From positions 1 through 46,724 of the forward strand of contig CAMWNG010000011.1 of the NCBI GenBank assembly GCA_947175575.1: a stretch of 46,724 nt of DNA, given 5' to 3'. The notes beneath the pieces are model-generated. The model was not told the origin of the DNA, did not search any database, and saw only the letters and a list, made by a program, of their open reading frames with translations. Below, piece by piece: positions 639-46,724 of this stretch (positions within the stretch are counted from its first letter, which is position 1; each line of letters begins with the position of its first letter). This DNA comes from an uncultured Bacteroidales bacterium (GTDB taxonomy: Bacteria > Bacteroidota > Bacteroidia > Bacteroidales > Muribaculaceae). The position numbers were made by a program, and so were the translations under genes.

Positions 639-3600
639 TTATTTCACGAGGAGCTTGAAGGTGAGATCGCCTGCCTTAACGACGTAGACGCCGGAGGTCA
701 GCGGGCCGAATGTGGCACAGCCGGTGGCACTACCTACGGTGCGGCCGGAGAGATCGGTGACAGTTACCGCTACGCCTTCCGCGGCAGTGACAATGATATT
801 CTGACCATTGACACGAGCACCCGCAACCGTCTCAACTGACACGTCCGCAACGCCTTTCGAAATCACATCCATTATCTTGGTGGTGAGGTAGAGATTCGGG
901 AAAACGGCGTTCTGCATCACACACACCACTCCGAAAGCGTCCTTCAGGAAGGTTGTCACGCCGTCCTTTATCTCATAGCTGTCTGTAGCCAGAGGAGTGC
1001 CGACGAGGTTCAGTTCGGCATCCAGATAGGGTTCGCCGTCAAACCATGTATATGTAGTGAATGTATCACCTACCTTAAGCTGAGACGAGAGGTCGACACA
1101 GCCGTCTACGGCTTCCACTTCGAGCGGTGCCTGACCGGAATATCCATAAATGTCATAGTTCCTGTCGGCCGGCAGGGTGGTGAAAGTGAAATAGTTGCTT
1201 TCAAGATGAACCACGCGGAGCGAGGGCGCTACGCTTAGATCAATAGTCTCGAACTTGTTATTGGCGATGAACAACTGGTCAAGAACCGGCAGTTTTGAAA
1301 GATCAAGCTGTGAGAGATTGTTACCGGTAAGTTCAAGATTCCACAGTTTGGGATTATTGCTTACGAATTCTTCGAGTCCGGAACGGTATGCATAGAATGC
1401 TTCCAGACGTTTGAGGGAGGAGATATCGATTTTCTTTATGTCGTTGTCGCCTGCATCGAGCATTTTGAGTTGTGCGTATTTCTCGATTACGGGTTGAAGG
1501 TCTGTGAGACCACAGCCGGTGAGGCGCATTTCCTTCAGTGCGGGAGATTCAGGAAGTTTGATATTGTCGTTGCCCGCTTTAGAGAACATCAACGAGAAGT
1601 ATGAGAGATCTTTGAGCGAGGACATATCGAAAGAGGAAAGCGGGCCTACAGCGAGCGAGATGCCGGAGAGACCATCATCTTCTGTGAGTGAGTAGCACTT
1701 GACTTCGGCGCCGGCAGTCACGGGAACCTCAAAATGTTGTACCTCGGTGGAAAGAATGTAAGGCTCCAGTTCGCCATTACCGGCCCAGTCGATATAGATT
1801 GCGGTATTGGACTTTTTGCCTGTGACTGACATCTGGCCTATGCCATCCAGTAGGGTCTTGAACGAGCCCCAGACGTAGTCAGGCTTTTCTGTGGGCTGGA
1901 CATCGGTTGTGGTAATGCGTGCGGCGTCCTTGAAGTCGGGGAATGCAGGATTGCTCATGCGGCAGAAAACTTTGCCGATAGAGGTATCCTTGAACGAGAA
2001 GCGGCCGTTATTGGCGTTGATTATGTTTTCGTCAACGGGAGTGTCGGTTCCGGCGAGATACCAGCTGAAAACTGTCGGAGTGCCGTCGGCGGCCGCCAGA
2101 TAGTCAACCAGACTGATCACGGGGGCGGTCATGGGGAGGGTCACCACGTTCTGGGGCGCGTAAGTGTATTTCTCGAATGAGCTTGCGGCAGGCATATTTG
2201 CGAAGGTGTAATCATTCAGGGAGATATCCACTTCTTCGAGAGGAACATAATCCGGGAGTTCGAACTCGCTGAGGTGGTTGCCGGCAGCCTTGAATACACG
2301 GAGCGATTCACAGTCGCGGAAAGAGAATACTGAAATATTGTTTCCGGAGATATTCAGTTCCTCGAGCAGGTTTATTTTGAGATACGGGAATTCTGTCAGA
2401 CGGTTGTTGGCCACATTGAACTTGCGCCATTCGCCTGCATTGTCGTAATCGAATGAGGTGAGGGCGTTGTTGGCCAGATTGATATCTGTAAGGATATTCT
2501 TTGTGAACAGTTCGTTAACACCGCGTAAAGATATTGTGGTGAGCTTGTTGCCGCTGAGGTCGAGCTTCTGGAGTCGAGAGTTGTATTGCAAAACGATCGA
2601 TGGCAACTGACATTCCGACAGAATTAGAGTGTTGAGTGCGCGGGCTTCCTTTAAGTCGACATTCAGCAGACGTTGACCCTTTACGGAGATGGACGTGAGC
2701 TGATCGCCCTCTGCGGTGTAGATTGTTATGGTTCCTGCGCGCTTGCCCTTTACATTTGGTTCATCTGTGGGCTGGTCGGAGAGAGCTTCGAACGGAGTCT
2801 TGACCCCATTACCGAAGTCGATGTAGAAAGTCTTGGGAGCATCCGTGGTGGCGCCGGCGATGCCGATGCAGAAACTGAGGTCTGATTCGCTGGAGGCGAA
2901 GCGCAGCGATGCGGTGGCGGAGGGTTGTCCGAAGTCTGCTTCCGACTTGACCATGAAGCGAGACGTGGTCATGTTGTAGAGGTCGAATACATTGTTCGAG
3001 AATTCGGCTACAAGACTGTCGGTGAAAACCTGATTGAGTGTGAGCTTGCCGTCGGCATAGGTATAAGCCTGCTGGTCGACAGGTGTTTTCTGGCGGGGAT
3101 CGGTGGATTTGATGCTGTAAAGCTGTACGGATGTCACTGTGCCTTCGCGCAGAACCTTGTCAGAGAAGTCAATGGTCGATCCAACCTTATAGCTACGTTC
3201 CACGGGGATATCGTTCTGGTAATATGTGTAGTCGTGGTAAACGGGCATGGGGAGCTTGCTGTACCACATATAGTTGCGGCTCAGGTTCAGGTTGATGAGC
3301 TTTTTCTGGTTTGAAAGGTCGATGGAGGTCAGGTGATTGTTCGACAGATAGAGATCCGTGAGCACGTCATTCTGACTGAGGTCTATATCCTCAAGCAGAT
3401 TGCCTGAAAGGAAAAGACGTGTCAGGTTCGGGGTTTTCGTCAGATCTATGTTTTTAAGCTTGTATTCGTTATTTACCGATCCGTCATGAGTGGCGTAGAA
3501 TTCGGTGAGTTTGGGGCACGGGGAGAGGTCAACCGACGTCACCTTGGTATCGCTTACGTTTATTATGATAAGTTCGGGATTGTTGGTGAAATCAACGTGG

Positions 3601-10709: not shown

Positions 10710-10814
10710 GAACTCGGGCGTACAGTTCCTCAAAGAATGGGACATCCGCGAGCTATGGTTTATGCGCCTCCGACACCATCCTCACCTACGCCGAACCCGG
10801 CATCAAGGGCGATA
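10710..10814 (+). pseudogene. Decayed internal fragment of efp
   Basis: This stretch matches three separated pieces of the intact efp gene in the same order and orientation. GGAACTCGGGCGTA corresponds to 7334-7347. CAGTTCCTCAAAGAA onward through ACCATCCTCACCT corresponds to about 7477-7544. CCGAACCCGGCATCAAGGGC onward to GATA corresponds to about 7582-7606. The joints fall at short shared words (GGGCGTA/AGGCGTA and ACCT), as expected from deletions between microhomologies. Small indels destroy the frame and there is no start or stop. The fragment ends where the inverted-repeat element begins. The stretch 10610-11107 holds no intact gene, only this fragment, that element and a terminator. Confidence 0.85.
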
Positions 10815-11007
10815 AGTAACTCTTCAAAATTAGTTTATATTATGGCTTTTTTTGTAATCCTTCGGGCTGATATGCCTTTGATTGTCTTGATGGAGCCTTT
10901 CTCCCTTTCGTTCAGTCGTGTAGCTCGCTACACTCCTTCTCTCAACGAAGAAATTCCCGCATCAATCCTACTCAAATTCATATCAGCTAATTTTTAAGAG
11001 TTACTTA
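10813..11007. repeat. Palindromic terminal-inverted-repeat element, 195 bp
   Basis: The ends 10813-10833 and 10987-11007 are inverted repeats, 20 of 21 bases matching (TAAGTAACTCTT...). Inside, GCTGATATG (from about 10871) pairs with CATATCAGC (about 10978-10987), TTTCGTT pairs with AACGAA, and the apex is GTGTAGCTCGCTACAC near 10918-10933. The whole element can therefore extrude as one nested cruciform. It has no coding capacity, consistent with a MITE-like or REP-like repeat. Its apex is shared with the element at 29161-29477. No target-site duplication was seen. Confidence 0.75.
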
Positions 11008-11049
11008 CCCTCCAAAAGGCAAAATAACATTGATGCAGCCGGCAATATG

Positions 11050-29026: not shown

Positions 29027-29094
29027 AACGGTTTGCGTGTTTATGTTAAGGGGTTTCAGTCATGAGGGTGAGTCGTGGAGGGCGTTTCCGAACG

Positions 29095-29102
29095 CAAAGG
29101 TA
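29095..29102 (-). promoter_or_regulatory. -7 box (TACCTTTG) for the sugar transporter
   Basis: A perfect TAnnTTTG gives a leader of about 65 nt. No TTG at the usual -33 distance. Confidence 0.5.
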
Positions 29103-29160
29103 GCACTTTTTTGCCACATTCCGCCTTGATGTAACAAAAAAAATGAGGAAGATGTTAAAA

Positions 29161-29477
29161 CCCCGTTCCCCAATATTTGTTAACGCTGGGGCGGTCAAGC
29201 GTCGTGCAGATGTGTTTGCGCAGTGAGGGAGCAGTGCGGTGGCATTGTGACCGATGCAAACGGACGCAGATGCATGACGATTGGCCAGTGGAAATCCATT
29301 TGCGATAAATTCATATATGAATTGTTTTGTAACGAAAAAATTACCTTTATATCGCATCTCGCCGGTGATTTTTGCCTTGTCCTTCAGTCACGTAGCTACA
29401 GCTACGCTCCTTCATCACAAGACAACAATCACTCGGAGATATGCGACCCAAGCCTTAATAAATATTTAGGAACGGGG
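29161..29477. repeat. Terminal-inverted-repeat element, 317 bp, with nested palindrome
   Basis: The ends 29161-29183 (CCCCGTTCC...) and 29455-29477 (...GGAACGGGG) are inverted repeats matching at 20 of 23 bases. The left half (29165-29286) recurs at 46448-46569. The right half contains a nested palindrome, 29352-29446, with outer arms TCGCAT/ATGCGA and apex GTAGC-TACA-GCTAC at 29392-29405; the apex region resembles that of the element at 10813-11007. No transposase and no plausible gene lie inside, and no target duplication was found. It fills most of the gap 29027-29505, whose remainder holds only the transporter leader. Likely a non-autonomous mobile repeat (MITE-like). Confidence 0.8.
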
Positions 29478-29505
29478 TCTAAGACATCGCCTCATTTTTT
29501 TCGAT

Positions 29506-30174
29506 TCAATATTGTCTTTCGCCGAAGATGGCTGTGCCGACGCGAACCAGGGTCGCCCCTTCTTCGATAGCGAGCGGATAATCGTCGCTCATACCCATTG
29601 AGAGAGTATCGAATCCGCGCAGGTCGGGACACATACGCGCGATTTCGGACTTGATTTCGGCCAACCGGTGGAAATCGTCGCGGATTCGGATTGTATTGTC
29701 AGTATTGGTAGCCATTCCCATGATGCCGCATATATGTGTGGCTTTGAGATTCTCGAATCGCCTGGCGCGGAAATATACAAGGATCTCGTCAGGAGAGAAT
29801 CCGAATTTGGTCTCCTCCGCCGCCACATGCACCTGCATCAGCACCCGCGTGGTGGCTCCCGCGTCCGCGCTGAGGCGGTCGATAAGTTCAAGCAGCCGTT
29901 CCGAATCCACGCTTTCGATCATTGCGGTCCGGCCGATGAGTTGGCGCACCTTGTTCGTCTGCAGATGGCCGATGAAATGCCAACGGACATCGGCTGGCAT
30001 TTCGGGCTGTTTGGCCAAAAGCTCCTGCACGCGGCTTTCGCCGAAGATGCGTTGGCCGGCGTCGTATGCGGCACGCAGGGCCTCGACAGGGTGGAATTTG
30101 GAGACTGCCACGAGCTCCACCCCTTCAGGCAGGGTGGAATGCAGCTGACGGATTGCCTCGGAGATGCGGTTCAT
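29506..30174 (-). CDS. yggS: YggS/PROSC-family pyridoxal phosphate homeostasis protein
   Basis: This 222-aa cytosolic protein binds PLP and buffers its level. The PLP lysine is Lys26 in VAVSKFHPVE. Other family marks are FGESRVQELLAK, WHFIGHLQTNKVRQLIG, the EETKFGF segment, SMGMSDDYPLAIEEGATLVR and the end VGTAIFGER. The length is normal. Its start overlaps the DUF4494 stop by one base (TGATG), so the two are co-translated. Confidence 0.95.
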   Translation of the reverse strand: MNRISEAIRQLHSTLPEGVELVAVSKFHPVEALRAAYDAGQRIFGESRVQELLAKQPEMPADVRWHFIGHLQTNKVRQLIGRTAMIESVDSERLLELIDRLSADAGATTRVLMQVHVAAEETKFGFSPDEILVYFRARRFENLKATHICGIMGMATNTDNTIRIRDDFHRLAEIKSEIARMCPDLRGFDTLSMGMSDDYPLAIEEGATLVRVGTAIFGERQY

Positions 30175-46429: not shown

Positions 46430-46447
46430 AGTCTGGTCTTAGCCCCG

Positions 46448-46569
46448 GTTCCCCAATATTTGTTAACGCTGAGGCGGTCAAGCGTTATGCAGATGTGTTC
46501 GCGCAGTGAGGGAGCAATGCGGTTGCATTGTGACCGAAACAAGCGGACACAGATGCATGACGATTGGCC
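46448..46569. repeat. Second copy of the left half of the 29161 element
   Basis: 122 bp align without gaps to 29165-29286 with about ten substitutions. The upstream flank GTCTTAG-CCCC also resembles the reverse complement of the other copy's right end. The right-hand palindrome and right terminal repeat are not present before the window ends. No gene is credible in 46430-46724; the rest of that stretch holds two small hairpins. Confidence 0.85.
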
Positions 46570-46594
46570 GTGGCAATGGTAACTCATGCCACGG
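46568..46594. other. Hairpin after the partial repeat
   Basis: CCGTGGCA (46568-46575) pairs perfectly with TGCCACGG (46587-46594). It may close the repeat on this side or act as a terminator for the dnaN-rlmB run, although no T-run follows. Confidence 0.5.
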
Positions 46595-46680
46595 ATAAGT
46601 AAGAATAATGATATGTACGGATTTCGGGGTGGAGTTGGATTATACAAACCGCAACATAAACATTGCGCATGCCGCCATCG

Positions 46681-46708
46681 CAATTCCTTTTGAAGTGTGA
46701 AGGAATTG
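46681..46708. other. Hairpin near the window end
   Basis: CAATTCCTT (46681-46689) pairs perfectly with AAGGAATTG (46700-46708) around a 10-nt loop. The context to the right is cut off by the window, so its role cannot be judged. Confidence 0.4.
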
Positions 46709-46724
46709 TTCGTAGTTTCTGTTT

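Follow-up and report, generated by a model that had tools for sequence, protein, structure and literature searches.

Paired Inward Hairpins in a Putative IS5-Derived MITE of Bacteroidales and Their ERIC-Like Apex

What is the short non-coding segment with inverted ends that is flanked by a yggS-like and an MFS gene in the genome of an uncultured Bacteroidales bacterium of the Muribaculaceae? The window analysed here is the whole stretch of 46,724 nucleotides, which is the whole of contig C11. The initial annotation had described the segment as a MITE-like element or a mobile structured-RNA cassette of no named family. The best explanation overall, on sequence comparison, is a MITE derived from an IS5-family insertion sequence (IS), with paired inward hairpins whose selected form is RNA; we give this reading a probability of about 0.8.

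Ends, copies and insertion site

As shown in Table 1, the element runs from 29159 to 29479 and is flanked by TAA at each end; it had first been placed at 29161 to 29477. Its inverted ends, which had been described as matching at 20 of 23 bp, are real but longer: the arms 29160-29191 and 29447-29478 are 32 nt long and 84% complementary. The nested palindrome at 29352-29446 was borne out as well (self-match of 72.9% over 96 nt), but it was the only one reported, and a second of the same kind is located at 29191-29287. The half said to recur in the window is the left half, found again at 46444-46577, where the copy runs into the contig end. In the middle of the element, ~29291-29317 resembles by eye, unscored, a piece of the transposase gene of the copy at locus L053. 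Two open frames run across the element, 29223-29570 on the plus strand (115 aa) and 29046-29357 on the minus strand (103 aa). Neither matched a Pfam family at E 0.01, in agreement with the statement that the element holds no gene, and the MITE accounts for spurious short reading frames across these repeats. No Rfam match at the gathering score was detected within the window; at the E-value threshold there was one sub-threshold match (E 0.22), which told us nothing useful. No U tract of an intrinsic terminator was seen at the hairpins, and no tRNA within the window.

Table 1. Features of the window assigned to the element, its second copy and a different MITE. Folds are RNA folds in kcal/mol; fractions are the number of 200 shuffles that fold as well.
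Feature	Position	Strand	Evidence or remark
Target-site duplication TAA, left	29156..29158		identical 3-bp TNA in 35/46 evaluable copies
MITE, 321 bp	29159..29479	+	ends set by comparing 47 complete copies
Left terminal inverted repeat (TIR)	29159..29191	+	first base A; G in most copies
Left nested hairpin	29191..29287	+ (motif strand)	fold -53.8 (z -6.75, 0/200) vs -23.4 on the other strand (z -0.34, 74/200); model match 29212-29270, 43.4 bits
Left apical motif GGAGC-stem-loop-stem-GTGACCGA	29228..29254	+	one stem pair is G.T
Middle, probable leftover of IS interior	29290..29350		sequence
Right nested hairpin (the palindrome first reported)	29350..29448	- (motif strand)	fold -50.9 (z -7.8, 0/200) vs -36.9 on the plus strand (z -6.5, 0/200); model match 29368-29426, 52.5 bits
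Right apical motif GGAGC-stem-loop-stem-GTGACTGA	29384..29410	-	motif pattern
Right terminal inverted repeat	29447..29479	-	arm pairing and copy comparison
Target-site duplication TAA, right	29480..29482		copy comparison
Second copy, left end, cut by the contig end	46444..46577	+	90% match; model match 46495-46553, 48.2 bits
Transposase remnant of the second copy	46643-46723	-	sequence match
Different MITE, one hairpin with the same apex	10811..11009	-	other TIRs, TA at both edges

The element is multi-copy, as expected of a mobile element. Blastn with the 317 bp gave 67 matches within its own genome, a large share of which lie at the ends of contigs, and matches in 24 of the 61 genomes searched, all within its own genus. 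The copies have about the first 135 and the last 140 bases in common and differ in the middle. A fuzzy TIR search of loci fetched from the genus gave 47 distinct complete copies of 69-1060 bp (median 346), including a doubtful one of 69 bp, a few from diverged subfamilies and three, from genome G008, that share near flanks and so are not all independent. Aligning the copies with their flanks, a check that had been suggested at the outset, gave the exact ends and identical 3-bp TNA flanks in 35 of the 46 copies with both flanks (18 TTA, 16 TAA, 1 TCA).

Both hairpin apices were found in 30 of the 47 complete copies with a strict pattern, one in 13 and none in 4; a loose pattern found two in 38, one in 8 and none in 1. 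Since some persisting copies have fewer than two apices, two hairpins are not strictly needed to persist. Complete single-hairpin copies of 161-213 bp with perfect duplications occur at L033 87-247, L025 1438-1607, L313 384-579 and L299 416-628, and their layout is the same as that of ERIC-type elements.

Two contigs of genome G019 (L053 on C58, L091 on C10) share 567 bp at 100% identity, made up of the right part of the element and ~300 bp of flank; the identical right flank adjoins an element of 1060 bp on one contig and of 352 bp on the other. Either the element lost internal sequence at this very site, or the assembly combines two strains. At L050 450-5567 (G025:C6), 5.1 kb lie between the two ends of an element with TTA on both sides; this interior contains phage head protease, major head and neck-type genes and is a phage fragment either inside a copy or between copies.

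Both neighbours of the window insertion were found on one locus in 15 of the 29 relatives' loci, with a gap of 55-178 bp in all 15, compared with 479 bp here, and blastn detected the element in none of the 29. The MFS neighbour was 64-73% identical in six of the 15 and 41-45% identical in nine, which may be paralogues. The element is thus not kept at a fixed place among relatives: all 15 syntenic loci are empty, at the level of the locus and not of the single base.

Transposase remnants and the likely parent

Fragments of a DDE transposase lie in the middle of several copies of 475-1060 bp, on the minus strand in the orientation of the window. In the copies L053, L054 and L058 they are located between the same ends as those of the window element, and the longest copy, L053, contains a 239-aa stop-to-stop frame. 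L053 and L082 were over the cut-offs of Pfam DDE_Tnp_1/DUF4096 and of NCBIfam NF033580 (IS5 family; 171.2 bits for L053 and 161.8 bits for L082, cut-off 110). L082 is an intact related IS in the same genome, 1149 bp long with a 250-aa frame (50% identical), and its TIR, AGAGCCGGTTC, is related to that of the window element, with TAA on both sides. L098 likewise has AGAGCCGGTTC TIRs and TAA flanks.

A search of 49 genomes from the genus at E 1e-40 gave no intact copy of the exact parent, several of its matches stopping at contig ends. Many contigs of the source assembly, G000, start or stop inside a copy (e.g. C12, C47, C73, C81 and C103), and the assembly therefore probably lacks intact copies of the IS; the MITE explains why the source assembly often breaks at these repeats. 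Of the full-length relative with a transposase that had been anticipated, we thus obtained remnants between the same ends and the intact L082 with related TIRs, but not the parent itself.

The common ends, the TNA duplications, the transposase fragments, the varied internal lengths and the intact relative indicate that the MITE at 29159-29479 arose from an IS5-family IS of the NF033580 type through internal deletion. Copy number, TIRs and the 15 syntenic relatives without the insertion agree with the MITE reading put forward initially, and the parent can be placed in a named family, the IS5 family. The MITE was presumably moved in trans, by a transposase that acts on its TIRs. REPINs consist of REP sequences that go with a Y1 (RAYT) transposase. 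TIRs, TNA duplications and a DDE transposase fit IS5 and not the REPIN/RAYT system. The window element is like known IS5-family elements (NF033580, transpos_IS5_3) and their MITEs in transposase family, TIRs, TNA-type duplication and internal-deletion derivatives; it is unlike them in the ~95-nt inward hairpins between TIR and gene, usually at both ends.

The hairpin apex and where it is found

Each end carries a ~95-nt nested hairpin which, read inward, has the apex RGGAGC-[variable paired stem]-loop-GUGACY. The own genome contains 31 instances of the pattern GGAGCN(11-18)GTGACYGA and 2 of its reversed control. At the 30 own-genome sites that were fetched, five Watson-Crick stem pairs were found in 28 and four in two, one of which is the left apex of the window. 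Y is paired with the base preceding GGAGC at all 30 (16 G/C, 14 A/T).

Covariation was scored on apices from the fetched loci with stems of at least five pairs, reduced to 26 with flanks less than 80% identical; three were dropped, two that look like chance and one near-duplicate, leaving 23 rows. In these rows 194 of 195 cells pair and the covariation score was 0.623, against 0.197 when shuffled and at most 0.105 when slid. Rows were chosen in part for their inner stem, and the pattern itself prescribes GGAG, TGAC and GA, which biases the figures for those parts. The R-Y pair was unselected, and in the 26 rows it was G/C in 16, A/T in 9 and C/T in 1, the exception being a dropped row. The stem and the R-Y pair covary. 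The unpaired apex letters are likewise prescribed by the pattern, and that they do not vary across the 23 rows proves nothing alone. In the frame R-G-GA-G-C / G-U-GA-C-Y, a G.U stands beside two adjacent G.A mismatches, between Watson-Crick pairs, and the conserved positions are compatible with two such mismatches and the G.U. The two ends of one IS can differ in stem (L098, L099, L106).

The motif strand folds better than its complement in all 23 non-redundant hairpins, by a mean of -18.2 kcal/mol with RNA parameters and of -7.3 with DNA parameters (again 23/23), the rows being related by descent within groups and not 23 independent trials. With the apex removed, the arms alone favour the motif strand in 23/23 (-34.5 vs -24.8). 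There are 103 G.U pairs in the motif-strand folds, 25 of them in the apex, vs 16 in the complements; in the arms they make up 78 of 728 pairs vs 16 of 619. Within the genus, distinct single-change types numbered 22 G.T vs 14 A.C, too weak to serve as stand-alone support for a wobble bias; counted as cells they were 58 vs 17, a figure inflated by shared ancestry. A plain DNA palindrome gives no reason for an excess of arm G.U pairs on one strand, and the strand bias points to transcribed RNA, or to one DNA strand. The structured-RNA half of the initial reading is supported, as far as sequence goes, by the covarying apex and this strong one-strand bias.

A covariance model of the 23 apices, all from Bacteroidales (R1), was run on 100 loci around related transposases and on nine initially omitted. 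The 12 of 88 distinct transposases with hairpins beside the gene form one branch in a quick tree (SH-aLRT 99), and none of 500 label shuffles was as low as the observed hairpin clustering. All 12 rows of this clade have at least one hairpin (both ends found in 9, one in 3), and no R1 hairpin was found beside the other 76. In the clade ISs the module sits between the TIR and the gene, reading inward. Six hairpin-bearing ISs were measured at 1112-1283 bp, compared with 892-910 bp for hairpin-less relatives with resolved TIRs (5 of 8 tried; one was masked and two had no clear TIR). The hairpin-less ISs L123 and L118 are 875 bp and 901 bp long; other-strand hairpins at these two loci lie outside the ISs, which were therefore scored "no" in the tree. 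The size difference and the single branch indicate that the module is an addition of ~100 bp per end, apparently gained once in this IS5 branch and then kept. The named loci with hairpin-ended ISs are labelled Muribaculaceae, Porphyromonadaceae, Barnesiella or Bacteroides; among 18 genomes reached via named loci, R1 matched only Barnesiella sp. WM24 and Bacteroides muris at E 0.01. At L123 2351-2512, a 162-bp MITE with TIR AGAAACTGTTTAAATTT and the same apex adjoins a hairpin-less IS5-type IS.

Further Bacteroidales families have single hairpins of ~120 nt that end in this apex. In the family f87, 21-47 pattern matches were found in three of four genomes (controls 0-1), the fourth having 2 vs 5 in the control; apex copies are also present in families f20, f28, f31, f81, f105 and f108. 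An IS5_3 transposase was considered as the partner of these single-hairpin elements and rejected, none of eight genomes that carry them having an NF033580 match over the cut-off. One edge of the f87 element, GAGACTGTTGCA, is the TIR printed for the IS5-family ISPg4 and for MITEPgRS of Porphyromonas gingivalis (PMC4596501); the other f87 edge differs from these. Like the window element, the P. gingivalis MITEs BrickBuilt, MITE239 and MITEPgRS/MITE464 are non-autonomous and have TIRs of the IS5 family, to which ISPg4 belongs. The portion of PMC4596501 consulted does not describe the apex in these MITEs; BrickBuilt is a minisatellite. At L383 (G494:C7), apices at 864-888 (+) and 1131-1155 (-) belong to two single-hairpin f87 elements, inverted and ~270 bp apart. 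Gene context was taken for 41 f87 sites examined of 64 pattern matches in two genomes: 15 lie between convergent and 2 between divergent genes, 8 are undecided, and the 16 between genes of the same direction divide into 8 sense and 8 antisense copies. Host-gene orientation in f87 was accordingly discarded as an argument that the hairpins act in mRNA.

The second MITE of the window, ~195 bp long, has a minus-strand hairpin and TIRs AGTAACTCTTCAAAA / AGTAACTCTTCAAAATTAG. It gave 20 own-genome blastn matches, ten of them full-length, with near-identical copies among the matches. Among 49 genomes of the genus 11 matched, some over TIR length only, with copies of 71-77% in G004. In its apex the G.U is replaced by G-C and the neighbouring C-G by U-A.

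ERIC sequences are widely used in strain typing. ERIC (also IRU or RU-1), of Enterobacteriaceae and Vibrionaceae, is like the window element a non-coding palindromic intergenic repeat. It differs in having one hairpin, 127 bp and its own TIR, compared with two hairpins in 321 bp, and in its hosts, the 24 genomes with the window element all belonging to the element's own genus and not to enterobacteria or vibrios. The E. coli consensus, reverse-complemented, reads CCCCAGGAGC-TTAC-ATAA-GTAA-GTGACTGGGG as printed in PMC2759123. Its apex, CAGGAGC-TTAC-ATAA-GTAA-GTGACTG, has the same RGGAGC..GTGACY frame with a stem that changes on both sides. A 44-base ERIC core matched 5373 of 5426 E. coli genomes. 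R1, built with no enterobacterial input, gave the ERIC core a score of 20.9 bits, with E 0.0007 for the 98 kb searched (~0.03 for one copy when scaled to a whole E. coli genome); the best chance match in 50 kb of K-12 scored 10.0 bits. Five ERIC-like copies were picked from viral contigs, of which four scored above 20.9 (to 24.6) and one the same. ERIC stem changes on both sides, TTAC/GTAA and ATAG/CTAT, were seen in viral contigs. Two pattern scans of these contigs were made, each with 80 loci fetched of at least 120 matched. The first was set aside as mostly chance (a 4-bp stem in 2 of 80 matches); in the second a 4-bp stem was present in 12 of 84, nine with ERIC-like flanks by eye, two of them identical.

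Likeness to ERIC beyond the apex is weak. Among 11 single-hairpin elements the best p was 0.009 and most were non-significant; for the arms of 13 IS ends shuffle p ranged from 0.01 to 0.89, with 3 below 0.025. Extended homology to ERIC outside the apex was accordingly dropped. These comparisons show, at the level of sequence, that the ERIC apex equals the Bacteroidales apex; common descent with ERIC is not shown. No parent IS is named for ERIC in the portion of the ERIC literature consulted, and no open-access title or abstract start was found to tie the ERIC core to an IS end, which is not proof of absence.

Possible roles of the hairpins

The selected form of the hairpin is probably RNA. A role for this RNA can be suggested only tentatively, by analogy: the hairpins may insulate the element against read-through by folding and processing. 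Transcription entering the element from outside would make the inward RNA, which would fold into the hairpin with its conserved apex on a covarying stem. The folded hairpin would then be processed or shed, and transcripts read in from the host would thereby neither express the transposase nor disturb the ends. This guess draws on the RNA hairpins of ERIC and Correia, which are reported as RNase targets. The Correia element (NEMIS) of Neisseria is described in PMC2229807 and PMC10969869 as a TIR-bearing MITE that gives a folded transcript, which RNase III cleaves, and its likeness to the window element is one of reported architecture and RNA folding. ERIC in Yersinia is reported to have an orientation-dependent effect on mRNA stability with RNase E (PMC2229807; also PMC10969869). 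How such repeats move is given as an open question in a review (PMC2229807).

Several observations could also be read as a sign that the hairpins act as DNA, as single-stranded or cruciform ends that the transposase or a host factor would recognise, and so are part of the transposition machinery. The module is mirror-oriented at both ends, which suits a symmetric DNA complex; 30 of the 47 complete copies keep both apices under the strict pattern and 38 under the loose one; and the motif strand is also preferred with DNA energy parameters (23/23). A double-stranded palindrome has no need, however, of 78 G.T-type arm pairs against 16 in the mirror image; hairpin-less IS5 relatives with TIRs are present in several copies per genome and are presumably mobile; and one-hairpin copies have perfect duplications. 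We regard a DNA role as unlikely. Use of the hairpins by the host for mRNA stability or regulation, as reported for Yersinia ERIC in PMC2229807 and PMC10969869, appears less probable still. The excess of f87 copies between convergent over divergent gene pairs (15 vs 2) might be taken in its favour, but such an excess is expected of any element that avoids promoters, f87 orientation is unbiased (8 vs 8), and the window site is empty in 15/15 syntenic relatives. The folding bias, which exists despite that 8/8 orientation, indicates selection on the element's own strand and not a fixed host-mRNA role.

Symmetry that arises from mutation alone, one arm being copied onto the other with no function, seems very unlikely. 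Arm-templated correction also yields compensatory changes, and so would mimic covariation, but it leaves unaccounted for the unpaired apex letters that recur in the own genome (31 vs 2 in the control); copying would erase G.U pairs, yet 78 are kept in the arms of one strand, and IS ends may keep different stems (L098, L099, L106). That no Rfam family matched at the gathering score would leave room for an undescribed RNA, in the form of a fixed, non-mobile structured-RNA gene of the host; this is refuted by the duplications, and also by the TIRs, the copy number, the transposase remnants and the empty locus, and its probability is negligible. An RNA form selected within an IS5-derived MITE is therefore the reading we prefer.

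The element itself is known in kind, an ordinary MITE; what is new is a clade of hairpin-ended ISs that share the ERIC apex. It is conceivable, though we would not count on it, that the apex marks a single RNA module which has spread across phyla as the working part of many MITEs, and which in Bacteroidales still forms part of transposase-bearing IS5-family elements, one at each end. Loss of one hairpin and the gene would then give the single-hairpin, ERIC-like architecture, and ERIC would descend from a hairpin-ended IS or have captured its core from one. If this were true, some widely conserved factor that handles RNA would recognise the module. A transposase-bearing IS clade with an ERIC-like apex makes both the movement and the role of the hairpin testable, and a covarying apex with a G.U and two G.A mismatches, common to elements whose TIRs differ, offers a defined target in the search for its reader protein.
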